Positions 7,599 through 62,904 of a DNA stretch of 64,000 bases are shown in pieces. The stretch covers positions 2,917,001 to 2,981,000 of the forward strand of contig NZ_VOQR01000001.1 of NCBI RefSeq assembly GCF_007995065.1, read 5' to 3'. Numbering within the stretch: the stretch's first letter is position 1; each line of letters starts with the position of its first letter. This DNA comes from Sphingomonas ginsenosidivorax. Its GTDB lineage: Bacteria; Pseudomonadota; Alphaproteobacteria; Sphingomonadales; Sphingomonadaceae. Below the pieces are notes generated by a model. It was not told the DNA's origin. It did no database searches and saw only the letters and a program-made list of their open reading frames with translations. The translations under genes were made by a program, and so were the position numbers.

Positions 7599-7658
7599 GG
7601 CAGGGCTCTATCCTTGGCGGCGAAGCGTGGAAAGTAGAGACACCAGCCTCCCCTGCCT

Positions 7659-7756
7659 CCCCGGCGAAGGCCGGGGCCCAATTGGAGAGGTGGCTTTAAC
7701 GGAGCGCCGCCGGCCATCACGGAGGTCCCCCAATTGGACCCCGGCCTTCGCCGGGG
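7659..7756 (+). repeat. Palindromic repeat family C, copy 1
   Basis: Outer arms CCCCGGCGAAGGCCGGGG and its complement enclose CCAATTGG-like inner arms and a variable centre. Related copies are at 52664-52772 and 62799-62904. It fills most of the 176-base gap between the acyl-CoA synthetase and the oxidoreductase, both on the minus strand, and could act as a terminator or RNA stabiliser. Confidence 0.85.
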
Positions 7757-7774
7757 AGGGGCCATCTCAGACGA

Positions 7775-10438: not shown

Positions 10439-10439
10439 A

Positions 10440-10571
10440 CTCCCCTCCCGCTTGCGGGAGGGCTGCCCAAAACTCCCCTCCCGCTTGCGGGAGGGGTCGG
10501 GGGAGGGCATGTCCTCGCGCATCATGCCCGAAACAAGCCCTCCCCTAGCCCCTCCCGCAAGCGGGAGGGGA
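10440..10571 (+). repeat. Palindromic repeat family D, copy 1 with extra arm
   Basis: A short hairpin at 10440-10462 (CTCCCCTCCCGC then GCGGGAGGG) is followed by a full element at 10473-10571 whose ends CTCCCCTCCCGC and GCGGGAGGGGA pair, with internal GGGGAGGGC/GCCCTCCCC arms. Other copies are at 50401-50496 and 61080-61187. It begins just after the lgt stop and runs into the next reading frame. Confidence 0.85.
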
Positions 10572-22817: not shown

Positions 22818-22938
22818 TGGACAGGACATGGTCGTCACGCACGATCCTGGCCTTCGCAGTCGTGGAGCAGCCCCTCGCGATTTGCCCAAAACACCCGTTG
22901 CCGGCTAGAGCAACGCCAGCGGTTCGGCTCACCCCCTT

Positions 22939-23009
22939 CCGTTCGCCCTGATCGAAGTCGAAGGGCATGCCCCGAACGCAGGTGCTTCGACGACGCCTAG
23001 CACGAACGG
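22939..23009 (+). repeat. Palindromic repeat family A, copy 1
   Basis: A 71-base element with ends CCGTTCG and CGAACGG and inner GTCGAAGGGCA / GTGCTTCGAC-like arms. Other copies are at 34067-34136 and, inside pccA, 48010-48080. It ends 46 bases before the antiporter start. Confidence 0.85.
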
Positions 23010-29145: not shown

Positions 29146-29238
29146 TGCTGTCCTAAGTAGTTGCGCGGGTCGAGGGTGCAAGCCCGGATCGGGGATCGAG
29201 CGCTCCGGACGCACGTACGCCCCCCAACCCGATTTACT

Positions 29239-29317
29239 GTTCTCCCGCGAAGGCGGGAGTCCAGCGCCAAGCAGCGCTGCGCTCGTGACTCCTGGGCCCC
29301 CGCCTTCGCGGGGGAAC
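29239..29317 (+). repeat. Palindromic repeat family B, copy 1
   Basis: Arms GTTCTCCCGCGAAGGCGGGA and GCCTTCGCGGGGGAAC enclose a variable centre. Other copies: 44602-44681, 47042-47120, 62678-62755. It fills part of the 227-base gap downstream of the OB-fold gene and upstream of the transporter operon; a partial CCCCGGCGCAGGCCGGGG arm of family C type follows near 29337-29356. Confidence 0.85.
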
Positions 29318-29372
29318 GGTATGCGGAACGGTTGCCACCCCGGCGCAGGCCGGGGTGGACCGGGTGGCTGTA

Positions 29373-34066: not shown

Positions 34067-34136
34067 CCGTTCGTGCTGAGCGAAGTCGAAGCACATCGTT
34101 CGGGGCAGACCCTTCGACTTCGCTCAGGGCGAACGG
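34067..34136 (+). repeat. Palindromic repeat family A, copy 2
   Basis: 70 bases, ends CCGTTCGTGCTGAGCGAAGT and CTTCGCTCAGGGCGAACGG, which pair over most of their length. It starts 12 bases after phhB and ends 12 bases before the convergent SDR gene, so it may act as a two-way terminator. It is the copy most similar to the one inside pccA. Confidence 0.88.
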
Positions 34137-44592: not shown

Positions 44593-44601
44593 TCCCCACC
44601 C

Positions 44602-44681
44602 GTTCTCCCGCGAAGGCGGGAGTCCAGGGTTACGGAACGCAGCGCTGCTTGGCTCCTGGACTCCCGCCTTCGCGGGAGAAC
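44602..44681 (+). repeat. Palindromic repeat family B, copy 2
   Basis: 80 bases, arms GTTCTCCCGCGAAGGCGGGA and its complement matching over 20 bases, enclosing TCCAGG/CCTGGA inner arms. It is located between hpd and hmgA within the operon and could adjust the ratio of their messages. Confidence 0.88.
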
Positions 44682-44744
44682 GGCGAGGGAAGGTGAGGCG
44701 GTCACACCCGCGAAGAATCGGAACAGGTGTTGGAGAGGAAGCCC

Positions 44745-46687: not shown

Positions 46688-47040
46688 TCGAGCGCGTCTT
46701 CGCGACCCCGGCCGGCGTGACGCTCGGCCCGCTCGCGCTCATCCCCGACGGCACCGCGCGCAATTTCGTGCTGCAGCTACGCGCCGGGCGGTTCCACGGC
46801 TTCGTCGTGCGCCGCGGCGAGAGCGTGGTCGGCTATGTCGATCGCTGTCCGCACATGGGCGTGCCGTTGGCGCAGTCGCTCGACGCCTATCTGACCCCCG
46901 ACGGGACGCGGATCGCCTGTGCATGGCATGGCGCGCTGTTCGAGATCGCCGACGGGCTGTGTGTCGGCGGTCCGTGCGTGGGGGCCGCACTTACCCCCTG
47001 GCCGGTGACGGTGGCCGACGGAGTCATTGTCACCGCCTGA
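46684..47040 (+). CDS. Rieske [2Fe-2S] domain protein
   Basis: 118 residues. The cluster motif is CPHMG (residues about 55-59) and CAWHG (about 79-83), i.e. Cys-X-His and Cys-X2-His. No membrane segment or oxygenase domain, so it is a free ferredoxin-like protein. It overlaps the maiA stop (ATGA) and is therefore part of the homogentisate operon, possibly supplying electrons or a regulatory role. Its presence in this operon is not part of the standard pathway. Partner unknown. Confidence 0.9.
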   Translation: MIERVFATPAGVTLGPLALIPDGTARNFVLQLRAGRFHGFVVRRGESVVGYVDRCPHMGVPLAQSLDAYLTPDGTRIACAWHGALFEIADGLCVGGPCVGAALTPWPVTVADGVIVTA

Positions 47041-47041
47041 C

Positions 47042-47120
47042 GTTCTCCCGCGAAGGCGGGAGCCCAGGAGTCGCGAGCGCGGTCCTCCGTAACCCTGGGC
47101 TCCCGCCGTCGCGGGAGAAC
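47042..47120 (+). repeat. Palindromic repeat family B, copy 3
   Basis: 79 bases between the convergent Rieske and pccA genes; arms GTTCTCCCGCGAAGGCGGGA and TCCCGCCGTCGCGGGAGAAC with one mismatch. Likely a two-way terminator here. Confidence 0.88.
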
Positions 47121-47135
47121 AGCAGGCGGTGCGGC

Positions 47136-49178
47136 TTACTCCAGCTCCAGGATCACCTGGTCGACCGCCAGGCTATCGCCCGCCTTCGCCTCGACCGACT
47201 TCACCGTCCCGGTCTTCTCGGCGCGCAGGATGTTCTCCATCTTCATCGCCTCTACCACCGCCAGCGGCTGCCCAGCCTCGACCTTGTCCCCTGCCGCGAC
47301 GTCGAGCCGCACGAGCAGCCCCGGCATCGGGCAGATCAGGAATTTCGACAGGTCGGGCGCGATCTTCTCGATCATGTGCCGCGCATAGGGGGCCGCGCGC
47401 GCCGGCAGCACGCGAACGGCGTGGCTCGCGCCGCGCGTCGTCAGCTTGAAGCCGCCGCGCGTGCGCGCGATGCGGACGCTCAGGTCCTCCGCGCCGTCGA
47501 CCATGACCATCCGGTCGCCGGGCGTATATTCGAGCGCGACGTCAAGGTCCTCGCCATCGACGACGATCCCGTCGGTCGAGACCGTCACATTGTGGTCGAC
47601 GCCGCCGATCGTCACGGTCCAGTCCGCAGGCGGCCGCAGCCGCCGCCCGAGCTGGCCGTCGATCCGCCGCGCGCGATCGGCTTCCGCAGTCGCAGCGAAC
47701 GCGGCCACCGCGGCGAGCGTCGTCAGCAAGTCTGGGTTCGCCAGCGCGCCGTGGAAGCCGTCGGGATATTCCTCCGCGATGAACCCGGTGGTCAGCGCGC
47801 CCGATCGGAACCGCGGATGCTGCATGATCGCGGAGAGGAAATCGATGTTGTTGCCCGGCCCCTCGATCTCGAACGCGTCGAGCGCGGCGATCTGCAGATC
47901 GACCGCCTCGTCGCGGGTCGGCGCCCAGGTGATGAGCTTGGCGATCATCGGGTCGTAGAACATCGACACCTCGCCGCCCTCGCGCACGCCGTCGTCGACG
48001 CGCACATATCCGTTCGTGCCGAGCGTAGTCGAAGCACCTGCGCTTGGGACGTGCCCTTCGACTTCGCTCAGGGCGAACGGCAGGGGCGGGTTATACCGGA
48101 CCAGCCGCCCAATACTCGGCAGGAACCCGCGATACGGATCCTCCGCGTACACCCGGTTCTCGATCGACCAGCCGTTCAGTTGCACATCGGCTTGCGCAAA
48201 CGGCAGCGGCTCGCCCGCCGCCACGCGGATCATCAACTCGACCAGGTCGAGCCCGGTGATCGCCTCGGTCACCGGATGCTCGACCTGCAGCCGGGTGTTC
48301 ATTTCGAGGAAGTAGAAGCCCTCGCCGGTCGTATCCGCACCCGAGACGATCAGCTCGACCGTGCCGGCGGAAAAATACCCCACCGCCTGCGCGAGCGCGA
48401 CCGCCTGCTCGCCCATGGCTTTCCGCATCTTCGGCGTCACGAACGGCGACGGCGCTTCCTCGACCACCTTCTGGTGGCGGCGCTGGATCGAGCATTCGCG
48501 TTCGTTGAGATAGACGATGTTGCCGTGCTGGTCGCCGATCAGCTGGATCTCGATATGCCGCGGGCTTTCGATGAACTTCTCGATGAACACGCGGTCGTCG
48601 CCGAAGCTCGCCAGCCCCTCGCGCTTGGTCGCCTCGAAGCCCTCGCGAACGTCCTGCTCGCTATAGGCCAGCCGCATGCCCTTGCCGCCGCCGCCGGCGG
48701 ACGCCTTCATCATCACCGGATAGCCAATGCCCGATGCGATCTCGACCGCATGGTCGGTGCTGTCGATCTCGCCGAGATAGCCGGGGACGACGTTGACGCC
48801 CGCGGCCTTGGCAAGCTTCTTCGATTCGATCTTGTCGCCCATCGCCGCGATCGCCTCGGGCGGCGGGCCGACGAACGCGATCCCGGCCTCGGCGCAGGCG
48901 CGCGCGAAACTCTCGCGCTCGCTGAGGAAGCCGTAGCCGGGGTGGATACAGTCGGCGCCTGTCTCGCGCGCGGCGAGCAGGATCAGGTCGGCCTTGAGAT
49001 AGCTCTCCGCCGCCGGCGCCGGCCCGAGCCGGACGGATTCGTCGGCCATCAGCACATGCGGCGCGCGCGCGTCCGCGTCCGAATAGACCGCAACGGTCTT
49101 GATGCCCATCGCCTTGGCGGTCCGCATGACCCGACACGCGATCTCGCCACGATTGGCGACCAGAATTTTCTTGAACAT
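47136..49178 (-). CDS. pccA: Propionyl-CoA/acetyl-CoA carboxylase biotin-containing alpha subunit with in-frame repeat insert
   Basis: Carboxylates biotin and with PccB makes methylmalonyl-CoA from propionyl-CoA. 680 residues. Biotin carboxylase N-domain (KKILVANRGEIACRVMRTA), ATP-grasp KASAGGGGKGMR, EMNTRLQVEHPVTE, and the C-terminal biotinyl motif VVEAMKMENILRAE. Residues about 367-390 (FALSEVEGHVPSAGASTTLG and flanks) are encoded by repeat family A at 48010-48080, inserted in frame within the biotin carboxylase C-terminal subdomain. Homologues run directly from RLVRY.PP to VRVDDGV. ATG at 49178 overlaps the upstream stop. Confidence 0.95.
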   Translation of the reverse strand: MFKKILVANRGEIACRVMRTAKAMGIKTVAVYSDADARAPHVLMADESVRLGPAPAAESYLKADLILLAARETGADCIHPGYGFLSERESFARACAEAGIAFVGPPPEAIAAMGDKIESKKLAKAAGVNVVPGYLGEIDSTDHAVEIASGIGYPVMMKASAGGGGKGMRLAYSEQDVREGFEATKREGLASFGDDRVFIEKFIESPRHIEIQLIGDQHGNIVYLNERECSIQRRHQKVVEEAPSPFVTPKMRKAMGEQAVALAQAVGYFSAGTVELIVSGADTTGEGFYFLEMNTRLQVEHPVTEAITGLDLVELMIRVAAGEPLPFAQADVQLNGWSIENRVYAEDPYRGFLPSIGRLVRYNPPLPFALSEVEGHVPSAGASTTLGTNGYVRVDDGVREGGEVSMFYDPMIAKLITWAPTRDEAVDLQIAALDAFEIEGPGNNIDFLSAIMQHPRFRSGALTTGFIAEEYPDGFHGALANPDLLTTLAAVAAFAATAEADRARRIDGQLGRRLRPPADWTVTIGGVDHNVTVSTDGIVVDGEDLDVALEYTPGDRMVMVDGAEDLSVRIARTRGGFKLTTRGASHAVRVLPARAAPYARHMIEKIAPDLSKFLICPMPGLLVRLDVAAGDKVEAGQPLAVVEAMKMENILRAEKTGTVKSVEAKAGDSLAVDQVILELE
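48010..48080 (-). repeat. Palindromic repeat family A, copy 3, inside pccA
   Basis: 71 bases with ends CCGTTCGTGCCGAGCGTAGT and CTTCGCTCAGGGCGAACGG, closely matching 34067-34136. It contains no stop in the pccA frame and adds about 24 codons. Confidence 0.9.
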
Positions 49179-49417
49179 CAATTCTCACCCGATTGTGACG
49201 AGGAACGCAGCGCAAGGAATGCCAGCACGAGGCTGGCGAGCACGAAGACGACTGAGACCCCACCGAAAAAGAGTCCGAAGGGGCCGAAGCACTCGGCAGC
49301 TAGGCTACCAAATTGATGACACCGGCTAGCTTCTCGATCAGCGAAGCTCAGCATGACGAGACCGTAGCAAAGCCATGCTGTCAGCAACGCCAGCAGCACG
49401 GCGATGCGACGCCTCAC
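49178..49417 (-). CDS. Small two-helix membrane protein, unknown function
   Basis: 79 residues with hydrophobic helices at about 4-22 ([20 protein letters not shown]) and about 43-70 ([20 protein letters not shown]), Cys residues in the loop ([13 protein letters not shown]) and a short polar tail. GTG at 49417 in a GTGA overlap with the bioB stop, and its TGA overlaps the pccA ATG, so it is embedded in the propionate operon. The loop Cys pair may form a disulfide in the periplasm. No family recognised. Confidence 0.6.
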
Positions 49418-50514
49418 TCCGCCGCGACCCGCATCGGCTCCTCGCCGAGCATTGGCTTCAGCCCCAGCTTCGCCAGCAGCGCCGCATCCGCGCTGTCGCC
49501 AGCATTGCCCGTGGTCAGCAGCTTGTCGCCCGTGAAGATCGAGTTCGCGCCGGCCATGAAGCACAGCGCCTGCGTCGCCTCGCCCATGCTCTCGCGGCCC
49601 GCGGACAGGCGGACCATGCTCAGCGGCATCGTGATCCGCGCCACCGCGACGGTGCGGACGAACTCGATGTCGTCGATCTTTGCCATCGGCGTGTCCGCCA
49701 GCATGTCGCCGAGCGGCGTGCCGCGCACCGGCACCAGCGCGTTGACGGGGACGCTCTCGGGATGCCGCGGCAACGTCGCCAGCGCGTGCACGAAGCCGAC
49801 GCGGTCGCCGCGCGTCTCGCCCATCCCGACGATCCCGCCGCAGCAGACGCTGATGCCCGCGTCACGGACATTGGCGAGCGTATCGAGCCGGTCCGCAAAC
49901 GTGCGCGTGGTGATCACATTGCCGTAATTCTCGGGGCTCGTGTCGATATTGTGGTTGTAGTAATCGAGCCCCGCATCGGCGAGCTGCCGCGCCTGATGCG
50001 GCTCGAGCATGCCGAGCGTCATGCATGTCTCGAGGCCCATCGCCTTCACGCCCTCGACCATCGCGATCACCTTGCCCATGTCGCGGTCCTTGGGGTTGCG
50101 CCACGCGGCGCCCATGCAGAAACGCTGCGAGCCTGCGGCCTTGGCTTCGGCGGCGGACGCGAGCACGGCCTGCACCTCCATCAGCTTCTCGGCCTTCAAC
50201 TGCGTGTCGGCCGAGGCGGATTGCGAGCAATAGCCGCAATCCTCGGGGCAGCCGCCGGTCTTGATCGACAGCAACGTGCACAGCTGCACTTCGCCCGCGG
50301 CGTGATGCGCGCGGTGGACGGTCTGCGCGCGGAACATGAGCTCGTCGAACGGAAGGTCGAACAGCGCGCTGATTTCCGCGCGGGTCCAGTCGGTTCTGGA
50401 CTCCCCTCCCGCACGCGGGAGGGGCTGGGAGTGGGCCTGGTCGGGAACGGCGCTGCCCATCGACAGGCCCTCCCCTAGCCCCTCCCGCGAGCGGGACAAT
50501 AGTGTATCGGTCAT
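49414..50514 (-). CDS. bioB: Biotin synthase with repeat-derived N-terminal insert
   Basis: Radical-SAM enzyme that inserts sulfur into dethiobiotin. 366 residues. [4Fe-4S]/SAM cluster motif [13 protein letters not shown], with [10 protein letters not shown] before it, and [26 protein letters not shown] after. The native start appears to be MTDTL; residues about 7-38 are encoded by repeat D (50401-50496) before [20 protein letters not shown], the usual N-terminus. It overlaps the mutase stop (ATGA) upstream, and feeds biotin to PccA in the same operon. Other bio genes are absent here. Confidence 0.95.
50401..50496 (-). repeat. Palindromic repeat family D, copy 2, inside bioB
   Basis: Ends CTCCCCTCCCGCACGCGGGA and CTCCCGCGAGCGGGA; inner GTGGGCCTG / CAGGCCCTCC arms. 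96 bases, 32 codons, no stop in the bioB frame. The other copies are at 10473-10571 and 61080-61187. Confidence 0.88.
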
Positions 50515-52663: not shown

Positions 52664-52772
52664 CACCACCCCGGCGGAGGCCGGGGCCCAGTTGGAAAGG
52701 TCGAGGTAATGGAGCGCAGCACCAGTCAATTGTCCGTTACCCAACTGGGCCCCGGCCTCCGCCGGGGTGGTG
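52664..52772 (+). repeat. Palindromic repeat family C, copy 2
   Basis: 109 bases; outer arms CACCACCCCGGCGGAGGCCG and its complement, inner CCCAGTTGG / CCAACTGGG. It fills the spacer between the hydratase stop and the mutase start in the propionate operon and may create a step in transcript level. Confidence 0.88.
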
Positions 52773-52785
52773 GCGGGAGCAAGGC

Positions 52786-60123: not shown

Positions 60124-62637
60124 CTACCGCGAACCGGCGGCCCTTGCATCCGCCTTTTTCGTGCGCAGCGTGGCCGACGCCGAAGCGGGGTCGTCAGGCC
60201 AGGGATGCTTCGGATACCGCCCGCGCATTTCCTTCGCGACCGCGCTCCAACTGCCCGCCCAGAACCCCGGCAGGTCGCGAGTCGTCTGGATCGGCCGGCC
60301 GGCGGGCGAGGTCAGGCTGAGGACGAGCGGTACGCGGCGCTCGCCCACCACCGGATGCACCGCGAGCCCGAACAGCGTCTGCACGCGCAGGTCGACGCGC
60401 GGCCCGCCCTCCGCCGCATAGTCGATCGCATGCGTGCTCCCCGCGGGACTGGTGAACTCGGCAGGCGCCAGCCGGTCGATCGTCCGCATCGCATCCCAGC
60501 CCAGCAGGGCGCGCAGCGACTCGGTCAGCGACCCGATCTGGTCGAGCCGGCGCTTGCCCGCCAGCAACGGCACGAGCCACTCCTCCGCGCGGTCGAGCAG
60601 CGTCGCGTCGTCGAGCGGCACGCCCGCGAACGCCGCACGGTCGCGCAGCGCCCGCGCGCCCTCGCTCCACGGCAGCAGCGCGAGGCCGTGGGTGCGGACA
60701 CCGTCGAGCAGCGCCGCGGCGATCGTCGCGGGGTCGGCACCGCTGTCCGGCCCGCTCGACAGCCGGATCGCGCCCAGCCGGCGTTCGCGGATCGGCTGCA
60801 CGCCGCCGGTCGCGGGGTCGAACACCGCGGTACGCCGCGTCTCGATTCGGTCGGCGAACAGCGCCTCGACCGTGGCGGCGTCGATCGCCGCGGCGGACAG
60901 GATCCGTGCACCCGCCGCCGACCCCTGCGTCTCCGCGACCGCCAGCCATTCCGACCGCGCGAGCGGCAACGCCGGATCGAGCCGGAACCCGCGTCCGCCC
61001 ACCGACGCCCAGGTCTCCCCCGACGCATCCCGCCGCCGCGCGATTCGATCGGGGAAGCCGAGGGCGAGGGCCACTTCGACTCCCCTCCCGCCTGCGGGAG
61101 GGGTTGGGGGAGGGCCTGTCCTGTCGGAACGCTCTGCTATATTTGCGACAGGCCCTCCCCCAGCCCCTCCCGCGAGCGGGAGGGGAGCAAGGCGCGCCCA
61201 CCGCTCCGCCATCCCCCGCGCCGCCTGGGCCTTCGGCCCACGCTCGGTCTTCCACCGCCGCAGCCGCGCCTCGAGATCGACGTCAGGGCCGCCGATCCCC
61301 CGTTCACCCAGCAACACCGCGACCTCCGCGGCCACCTGCCCCAGCCCCCGCTCGCCCGCGCGGATCAGCATGTGCGCCAGCCGCGGCGGCATCGGCAGCC
61401 CCGCAATCTGTCGCCCATGCGCGGTCGGGCGCCCATCCGCATCGACGGCTTCCAGCGTCGCCAACCGCGCCAGCGCCTCATCGGTCGCAGCCACGGGCGG
61501 CGGGTCGATCCAGCGCAACTCGCGCGGCGCGACGCCCCACAGCGCGCACGCCAGCACCAGCGCCGACAGGTCCGCCTCCAATATCTCGGGCGGATCGTAG
61601 CGCGGCAGCCCCGCGGTCGCCGCCGCCTCCCACAGCCGGTACGCGACCCCCGGCCCCTGCCGCGCTGCGCGACCCGCGCGCTGCGTCACTGCCGCCTGGC
61701 TCGCGCGTTCGGTGACGAGCCGCGTCATTCCCGCCGCGCGGTCGTAGCGCGGACGCCGGGCCAGCCCCGAATCGACGACGATGCGGATCCCGTCGAGCGT
61801 CAGGCTGGTCTCGGCGATACTGGTCGCGAGCACCACCTTCCGGCGCCCGTCGCGCTGCGGCGCGATCGCGGCGCGTTGCGCGGCGGGGTCGAGGTTGCCA
61901 TGGAGTTCGTGGAGCGCGATCGTCTCGGGCAGCCCCGCCAGCCGCTCGGCGGTGCGCTCGATCTCGGCGACGCCCGGCAGGAAGGCGAGCACCCCGCCCT
62001 CGTTCTCGGACAAGGCCAGCCGAACCGCGCTCGCGACCGCCTCCTCGATCCGCAGTTCTGCGTTGCGGCCGACATGCCGCAGTTCGAGCGGGTAGCTGCG
62101 GCCTTCGCTCTCGATCACCGCGGCGTCGTCCATCAGCGCGGAGAACCGCGCGCCATCCAGCGTCGCCGACATCGCGACGATCCGCAGGTCCGGCCGGAAC
62201 CCCGCCTGCACGTCGAGCGCCAGCGCCAGCCCGAAATCGCCGTCGAGGCTGCGCTCATGAACCTCGTCGAACAGCACCGCCGAGACGCCCGCGAGTTCGG
62301 GATCGGCCTGGATCCGCGCGACGAAGATGCCCTCGGTGATCACCGTCACGCGCGTCGCGGCGGACCGCCTGCTGTCCATCCGCGTCGCATAGCCGAAGGT
62401 CCCGCCGACCGCCTCGCCCGCGGTCGCCGCCATCCGCTCGGCCGCGGCACGCGCGGCCAGGCGGCGCGGCGACAGCAGCAGGATTTCGCCCGTGCACCAC
62501 GGCTCGCCGAGCAGCGCCGGCGCGACCGCGGTGGTCTTGCCCGCACCCGGCGGCGCGACGAGCACGGCCGACGCTGTATCGCGCAACGCCGCGAGCAGGT
62601 CGGGAAGAACGGCAAGGATCGGCAGCACGGGGGTCAT
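60124..62637 (-). CDS. hrpB: ATP-dependent RNA helicase HrpB with in-frame repeat insert
   Basis: 837 residues, DEAH/RHA-type helicase. Motif I VAPPGAGKTTAV, motif II as DEVH in LFDEVHERSLDGD, motif III AMSATLDGARF, motif VI QRAGRAARQGPG, then the HA2 and HrpB C-terminal regions (AEFTSPAGSTHAIDY, GRYPKHPWPDDPA). Residues about 484-519 (LPLAGGAGGGPVANIAERSD and onward to GGRG) are encoded by repeat D at 61080-61187, between AERWARLA and LALGFPDRIARRR, which are adjacent in normal HrpB. The open frame runs on upstream through repeats; ATG at 62637 is the credible start. Confidence 0.94.
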   Translation of the reverse strand: MTPVLPILAVLPDLLAALRDTASAVLVAPPGAGKTTAVAPALLGEPWCTGEILLLSPRRLAARAAAERMAATAGEAVGGTFGYATRMDSRRSAATRVTVITEGIFVARIQADPELAGVSAVLFDEVHERSLDGDFGLALALDVQAGFRPDLRIVAMSATLDGARFSALMDDAAVIESEGRSYPLELRHVGRNAELRIEEAVASAVRLALSENEGGVLAFLPGVAEIERTAERLAGLPETIALHELHGNLDPAAQRAAIAPQRDGRRKVVLATSIAETSLTLDGIRIVVDSGLARRPRYDRAAGMTRLVTERASQAAVTQRAGRAARQGPGVAYRLWEAAATAGLPRYDPPEILEADLSALVLACALWGVAPRELRWIDPPPVAATDEALARLATLEAVDADGRPTAHGRQIAGLPMPPRLAHMLIRAGERGLGQVAAEVAVLLGERGIGGPDVDLEARLRRWKTERGPKAQAARGMAERWARLAPLPLAGGAGGGPVANIAERSDRTGPPPTPPAGGRGVEVALALGFPDRIARRRDASGETWASVGGRGFRLDPALPLARSEWLAVAETQGSAAGARILSAAAIDAATVEALFADRIETRRTAVFDPATGGVQPIRERRLGAIRLSSGPDSGADPATIAAALLDGVRTHGLALLPWSEGARALRDRAAFAGVPLDDATLLDRAEEWLVPLLAGKRRLDQIGSLTESLRALLGWDAMRTIDRLAPAEFTSPAGSTHAIDYAAEGGPRVDLRVQTLFGLAVHPVVGERRVPLVLSLTSPAGRPIQTTRDLPGFWAGSWSAVAKEMRGRYPKHPWPDDPASASATLRTKKADARAAGSR
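61080..61187 (-). repeat. Palindromic repeat family D, copy 3, inside hrpB
   Basis: Exactly 108 bases (36 codons) from CTCCCCTCCCGCC to GCGGGAGGGGAG, whose ends pair, with GGGGGAGGGCCTGTC / GACAGGCCCTCCCCC inner arms. No stop in the hrpB frame. Confidence 0.9.
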
Positions 62638-62677
62638 GCGGGGCCTGCTGCCACAAGTCGGGCCTTTGGACACCAAC

Positions 62678-62755
62678 GTTCTCCCGCGAACGCGGGAGCC
62701 CAGGGTTCCGAGCGCCGCGTTCGCGGCTCCTGGCCTCCCGCCTGCGCGGGAGAAC
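62678..62755 (+). repeat. Palindromic repeat family B, copy 4
   Basis: 78 bases, arms GTTCTCCCGCGAACGCGGGA and CTCCCGCCTGCGCGGGAGAAC, with inner GCCCAGG/CCTGGCC arms. Confidence 0.85.
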
Positions 62756-62798
62756 GGAAGATCGCAAGGCGCCCCCTTCCACCACCCCACCCCCTTCC

Positions 62799-62904
62799 AC
62801 CACCCCGGCGAAGGCCGGGGCCCAGTTGGGAAGGCCGATGTGACGACACGCAGCCCTCCGTTATCGCCGTACCCCGACTGGGCCCCGGCCTCCGCCGGGG
62901 TGGT
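62799..62904 (+). repeat. Palindromic repeat family C, copy 3
   Basis: 106 bases; outer arms ACCACCCCGGCGAAGGCCGG and CCGGCCTCCGCCGGGGTGGT, inner GCCCAGTTGGG / CCGACTGGGC. It ends 63 bases before the PBP1A start. Confidence 0.88.

Follow-up and report, generated by a model that had tools for sequence, protein, structure and literature searches.

An in-frame repeat in a propionyl-CoA carboxylase gene

How does a palindromic repeat of a kind that otherwise lies mostly between genes come to be read as part of an enzyme, and why at this place in the protein? The question is raised by pccA of Sphingomonas ginsenosidivorax, which lies in the window, as the whole analysed stretch of 64,000 nucleotides is called here. 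The gene product has the Pfam domains Biotin_carb_N, CPSase_L_D2, Biotin_carb_C, PCC_BT and Biotin_lipoyl, of which PCC_BT is specific for propionyl-CoA carboxylase (PCC), its top sequence match in the PDB is the PccA of 3n6r (E 2e-254), and the seven top Foldseek matches of its AlphaFold2 model are PCC alpha chains. A sequence-only reading of the window had noticed that 71 bases of this gene resemble intergenic elements, and the three copies are present (22939-23009, 34067-34136 and 48010-48080), the arms at 22933-23009 and 48010-48086 being 87% complementary over 77 nt. The copy in pccA forms an inverted-dimer palindrome of 69 bp with the core CGTTCG..CGAACG (Table 1). It keeps the reading frame, as had been proposed, and adds 25 residues (366-390; about 24 had been estimated) within the open pccA frame. 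The RNA of the insert stretch folds with -42 kcal/mol (z -4.8), and none of 200 shuffles folds as well. An Rfam search of 46900-49300 gave nothing at the insert; it gave two microRNA matches, both under the gathering scores and both on another repeat near the pccA stop codon.

As parsed, the PccA loop has 29 aa, which is 21 aa more than the shortest loops in the genus (8 aa) and 9-17 aa more than uninserted loops of 12-20 aa in same-genus genomes. That biotin carboxylases run straight from RLVRY to VRVDDG, as the same reading held, is not always the case, as the repeat-free loops among the PccA read measure anything between about 7 and 32 aa. In the AlphaFold2 model (mean pLDDT 84.2, pTM 0.78), the insert connects the strands 361-363 and 391-396, and nowhere but at residues 369-387, within the insert, does pLDDT stay under 50 for three residues or more. 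Its counterpart in E. coli biotin carboxylase is presumably the dimer interface.

Table 1. Positions of pccA, its insert and the palindromic repeats in the window
Feature	Position	Strand	Basis or remark
pccA, propionyl-CoA carboxylase alpha subunit, 680 aa	47136-49178	-	open frame over 680 codons
25-residue insert L366-G390 (LPFALSEVEGHVPSAGASTTLGTNG), flanked by NPP and YVRVDDG	48009-48083	-	translation and short loops of relatives
REPIN-like element in pccA, inverted half-sites CGTTCGTGCCGAGCGTAGTCGAAGCAC and CCCTTCGACTTCGCTCAGGGCGAACG with 16-nt spacer	48011-48079	+	locus L012
Intergenic copy of the pccA element, 68 bp	34068-34135	+	locus L011; codon model puts it between coding segments
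Intergenic copy of the pccA element, 69 bp	22940-23008	-	locus L025; codon model puts it between coding segments
Second palindromic family, paired copies of CGTTCTCCCGCGAAGGCGGGAG	29237-29326, 44593-44690, 47020-47142, 62677-62764		
CGTTCTCCCGCGAAGGCGGGAG pair spanning the pccA stop codon	47020-47142	.	inverted pair 47020-47068 / 47094-47142, 84% complementary
Third palindromic family, CCTCCCGC..GCGGGAGG	10439-10571, 50400-50496, 61079-61187		
Fourth palindromic family, CACCCCGGCG..CGCCGGGGTGGT pairs	7640-7760, 52664-52773, 62784-62904		

The element family in the genome

With up to three mismatches, the 27-base half-site has 46 matches in the 4.14-Mb genome, which fall at 42 places, and the reversed control pattern has none. 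Full elements are found in 36 of the 42 stretches, the listed copies measuring 63-90 nt, and five stretches have no full element, while locus L021 is a half-site. The 36 full elements have flanks rich in C on their left side and in G on their right side, and no clear target-site duplication was seen in these flanks by eye. Four of the six frames are open in 33-34 of the 36 full copies each, the other two in one and three copies. Element length is divisible by three in 22 of 36 copies where one third would be expected (binomial P about 0.0006, ignoring kinship), which is no clean test because the copies are kin, and no proof of selection for frame because these related copies are mostly intergenic.

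By codon model and translation, only four of the 42 stretches are intragenic, with the caveat that the model, whose training was confined to this window, may miss weak genes; the element is thus dispersed and mostly lies between genes. The four are in pccA, in mdcD (malonate decarboxylase beta, over the NCBIfam cut-off), in a gene for an Acyl_transf_3 protein and in mtaB, where it is a half-site near the C-terminus. Besides the pccA copy, two further full elements and a half-site are thus read in frame in other proteins of this genome. Two further candidates from a codon scan in 150-base windows, L005 and L033, were not counted, as the segment scan puts the former between two coding segments and the latter at the start of a weak one.

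The mdcD copy offers a second in-frame site. Most of the listed MdcD homologues are near 300 aa in length, and several from Sphingomonas measure 319-355 aa. Forms with the element (here L035, P0122) and a form with only SVRNASPLPFGRGERPG or similar share one place among the parsed rows, 24 rows being unparsed. Among 37 same-genus genomes, only this one has a full-length close homologue. A strong match was found in 12 of 201 genus genomes, and in the nine of which the DNA was read, the site is empty in seven (L189-L193, L197, L198) and filled in two (this genome and L196), the loci L195, L199 and L200 being unparsed. The AlphaFold2 model of MdcD is poor (mean pLDDT 52.7) and was set aside.

Different repeats in the same loop of relatives

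A less biased view than that of the best homologues comes from 37 same-genus genomes including this one. The loop was read in 36 of them, G007 having no close ortholog. By sequence label, a palindromic repeat fills the PccA loop in 15 of the 36, and the repeats belong to at least five classes (A, B, C, E and F counted), told apart by eye. Class A is found in this genome and in L044, L048, L049 and L050, class A' (two in tandem) in L075, classes B and B' in L071 and L073, class C in L045 (a half copy), L047 and L055, class C' in L074, class F in L057, class E in L063 and, tentatively, class H in L053. Twenty of the 36 loops have no repeat, and the loop of L051, which resembles a decayed C, was left out of the 15. 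The tandem in L075, the PccA of G003, consists of two REPIN-like elements, both in frame, in a loop of 78 aa. In G026 (contig 1, 3541320-3543327; L077), a frameshift or a sequencing error breaks pccA into two overlapping matches, with the break close to residue 323 and outside the loop.

Of the best 120 PccA homologues among 7999 scored (query included), 119 were parsed, and peptide motifs assign a repeat class to every one of them (A 69, C 43, B 7); the remaining one looks like A. The list is a biased one: its query is of class A, and the motifs were defined on the very loops that they label. The distance from RLVRY to VRVDDG ranges from 17 to 68 aa in the parsed homologues, and sequences and lengths differ freely. 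Class A was also read in Hephaestia mangrovi, an A-like loop in Sphingomonas natans, a B-like one in S. segetis, and classes C or C' in Sphingomonas spp. BT553, PsM26 and NFR04. The third palindromic family of the window is of a class that fills the loop in other Sphingomonas. By eye, the insert of homologue P0054 (SAPAQAGAQ..) resembles the CGTTCTCCCGCGAAGGCGGGAG family in another frame.

The parsed loops of Novosphingobium, erythrobacters and Rhodobacterales are of other, repeat-free kinds with about 12-32 aa. Related genera do not share the inserted residues over unrelated DNA: the loops read in other genera are shorter and unrelated, with the sole exception of a Sphingomonadaceae MAG (L140), which carries a related, A-like element. 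Comparison with homologues, as the sequence-only reading had advised, shows that the insert is not confined to this genome, since the same element and several others occupy this site in many Sphingomonas.

The labels agree with the folding of the DNA, for which 72 loops of at least 48 nt were compared with 100 dinucleotide shuffles each. In 20 of 22 repeat-labelled loops z was -3.1 or lower, the two exceptions (L045 and L125) looking like half-copy remnants, and in 49 of 50 unlabelled loops it was -2.4 or higher. The exception among the latter, at -6.5, is L140, the loop of which reads FVSSEVET..LDANG and was relabelled A after the fold check.

Three of the tested classes are abundant in the genome whose loop they fill and lacking or less frequent in the others. 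Class E half-sites number 335 in G020 and class A' half-sites 43 in G003, with none in four other genomes in either case, and class B' half-sites number 57 in G009 versus 25 (in this genome, G000), 12, 5 and 1 elsewhere. Class B has 77 half-sites in G010, 106 in G000, 65 in G005 and one each in G009 and G004, and is thus commoner in G000 than in G010, though it fills the loop of G010. A joint pattern for C, C' and F (control 0-3) has 137 matches in each of G022 and G031, 121 in G024 and 40 in G017, and also 121 in G000, 132 in G004 and 8 in G005. High copy number hence goes with insertion for some classes without guaranteeing it, because the loop is uninserted in G005 with its many class B repeats and in G004 with its many C-type repeats.

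Within the genomes, PccA stands apart from the paralogues read. None of 20 paralogous alpha subunits of whatever carboxylase type, taken from 19 genomes of the same set, has an insert at the same position, all 20 loops being short, and the PccA insert is present in 11 of these 19 genomes. PCC alpha subunits are described as monomeric in passages of PMC10148081, and in passages of PMC4673880 the alpha subunits of GCC are trimeric and the GCC holoenzyme is similar to that of MCC, the alpha subunits of which are trimeric as well, and strikingly different from that of PCC. As the PCC alpha subunit is monomeric, the loop tip likely faces the solvent, and insertion at this loop would be in keeping with its being freed from subunit contacts in PCC.

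Relation to known repeat systems

REPINs consist of two inverted REP half-sites and occur in tens of copies per genome, and prokaryotic MITEs are short elements with inverted repeats and without a transposase gene. The pccA family resembles the former in that it consists of inverted half-site dimers with a short spacer and has many dispersed copies, mostly between genes. It differs in that RAYT-mobilised REPINs have a cognate RAYT, whereas this genome has no match to Y1_Tnp (PF01797) at E <= 0.001, a search that matched 5 of 14 control genomes. The pccA element is short, inverted-repeat and transposase-free like a MITE, but neither a parent transposon nor a target-site duplication was identified for it (flanks by eye, transposase search for Y1_Tnp).

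RAYT transposases are treated in the REP literature, as in parts of PMC3733652. Across 101 genus genomes, PF01797 matched in 11 (10 over the cut-off) and the exact 17-base class A motif, which diverged elements would escape, was found in 31; both occur together in only two of these 31 (G033 and G121, one motif hit each, G121 being below the cut-off). A RAYT as the local mobiliser was rejected in view of this small overlap and of the missing Y1_Tnp match, and because of the latter the element is called REPIN-like here with no claim to a RAYT. The sequence-only reading had spoken of a mobile, translation-compatible repeat that entered the gene. The presence of the repeat, its in-frame reading and its further copies in the genome all stand; its recent mobility is what we infer, because the Y1_Tnp search found no mobiliser, a RAYT-type transposase being absent from the results.

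In-frame palindromic repeats as such are already known, from the Rickettsia palindromic elements (RPEs) and from intragenic REPs of several species. RPEs are described in parts of PMC10969869 as palindromic repeats that lie in frame in unrelated protein genes and encode a conserved peptide. In-frame insertion into genes of known function is found here too (pccA, mdcD, the Acyl_transf_3 protein gene and, as a half-site, mtaB), but RPEs, as described in those parts, strike many genes, whereas here several classes strike the same loop of a single gene across many species. Also, RPEs measure about 150 bp (PMC10969869) and the present elements 63-90 nt, which compares the two by description and not by sequence. 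GTAG- and CGTC-tagged REPs and their dimers have been found inside ORFs, and more than half of the inserts are dimers or groups that encode 20-30 aa, as stated in main-text parts of Di Nocera et al. 2013 (PMC3733652). In the same parts, different REPs are reported at about the same recB site in two Xanthomonas species, which is the nearest precedent for a shared insertion site in the sources consulted, and neither a pccA insert nor a hotspot for several classes was found there. The superfamily with the CGTC tag, followed by a stem of 8-9 bp that starts with AT, is unlike the window element, which starts with CCGTTCG, and is like the inserts of G009 and G020, which start with CGTCAT; the GTAG tag of the other superfamily is absent from the ends of the window element. 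A literature search over titles and the starts of abstracts found no published repeat hotspot in PccA, and what seems to be new is that one loop is repeatedly filled by different repeat classes at the species level.

Probable tolerance and turnover, and the alternatives

It is likely that REPIN- or REP-type elements insert widely and that the PccA loop tolerates them, its content being renewed thereafter by insertion and in-frame deletion. In this genome, a palindromic dimer of the REPIN-like family with its 42 places would have been inserted in frame into the codons of a predicted beta-hairpin tip in the biotin carboxylase domain. Such elements would land in many places, with selection presumably removing most hits in coding sequence, and the PccA loop may keep its inserts on account of its disorder, its freedom in length and its place in an alpha subunit that stays a monomer within the PCC holoenzyme. 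The element itself may help by its four open frames and its frequent divisibility by three. Later, the insert would turn over by in-frame deletion and replacement, and shorter forms such as ALSEGAST.. and PLPQAGGG.. would be in-frame deletions between half-sites. The insert peptide itself is probably functionless.

That the loop contents do change is suggested by their distribution. In a tree of 106 rows built with the loop left out (102 near-identical rows with the same label dropped, 11 rows with no parsed loop, loci above L141 omitted, L140 and L051 labelled by hand), the repeat states need 28 changes, a count that cannot separate gain from loss and comes from a quick tree with single-test support and 40 of 103 inner branches weak; its starred branches alone force seven changes for A, seven for C and six for B. 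The row nearest to the present PccA, P0002, is 98% identical outside the loop, yet it is of class B, and the next rows are C, C, C and B. In the clade of 26 rows around this PccA, no loop is empty, which counts against tolerance alone, although most of these rows come from the insert-biased homologue list and only L044, L045 and L048 from outside it. The repeat-rich and yet uninserted genomes G005 and G004, and the higher number of class B in G000 than in G010, also count against the explanation by wide insertion and tolerance.

A filled clade would be expected if repeats preferred existing palindromes, so that the first insert would have attracted later ones to the loop by nesting and replacement. 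Such targeted landing is possible rather than probable, and it is compatible with tolerance and turnover. Some loops read as class B within a class C remnant (ETSPLQ..PQRKLGYPG..AEPR, P0102), the mdcD element of this genome sits within CTCCCG..CGGGAG arms, with an intermediate form that has no element middle in relatives (SPLPFGRGERP), and in 24 of 36 copies the two bases at the seventh position outward from the core are complementary, a raw count without a shuffled baseline. The nesting is mostly read from peptides, however, and the C-rich left and G-rich right flanks may belong to the element. Moreover, inserted rows adjoin uninserted sisters in the tree (L115 with L069 and L070; L063 with L078), which means that a palindrome was not in every case present beforehand.

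The labels scattered over the tree with their 28 changes could also stem from few insertions followed by an exchange of loop alleles between Sphingomonas species through homologous recombination in pccA. This is rather unlikely. PccA and P0002 differ at 15 positions, five of which lie within 60 aa of the loop where an even spread would give about three, an excess that speaks for exchange but is slight. Between L044 (A) and L045 (C), DNA identity is 88% and 93% in the flanking windows of 30 codons, like in the rest of the gene, and 56% in the loop window. From NPP to the repeat, the class A copies L044, L049, L050 and L096 differ in their residues, and five or more classes imply no fewer than five insertions anyway.

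It is improbable that the insert is kept for a selected function, with the mRNA hairpin or the disordered peptide being useful in translation pacing, mRNA stability or holoenzyme contacts. The strong hairpins kept in the labelled loops, the filled loops throughout the 26-row clade and the sparing of the paralogues read would agree with it, but the loops differ freely in sequence and length among the parsed homologues, and 20 of the 36 same-genus genomes do without an insert. An assembly error, a pseudogene or a chance similarity can practically be dismissed: nothing speaks for it in this gene and the split pccA of G026 is broken away from the loop, whereas the frame is open, the same type of insert is found in proteins of several independent sources, the other listed PccA ortholog rows have no internal stops, and arm complementarity, the 46 half-sites against none in the control and the fold scores of the loops rule chance out.

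Going beyond wide insertion, tolerance and turnover, one might see the PccA loop as an evolved landing pad that draws unrelated palindrome classes, either by palindrome-targeted insertion or because a hairpin or disordered tag is favoured, so that species keep swapping repeat-derived peptides; this is doubtful at present.

Significance for selfish repeats in proteins

A single site in one enzyme seems to be a place where repeats land again and again, and the PccA loop is a natural, replicated experiment on selfish repeats becoming protein sequence. Since different repeats fill the loop of one gene while the paralogues read from the same genomes are spared, the question raised by the Rickettsia elements, whether such insertions are targeted or tolerated, becomes testable. 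The loop may also serve as an activity marker for repeat families without a known transposase.
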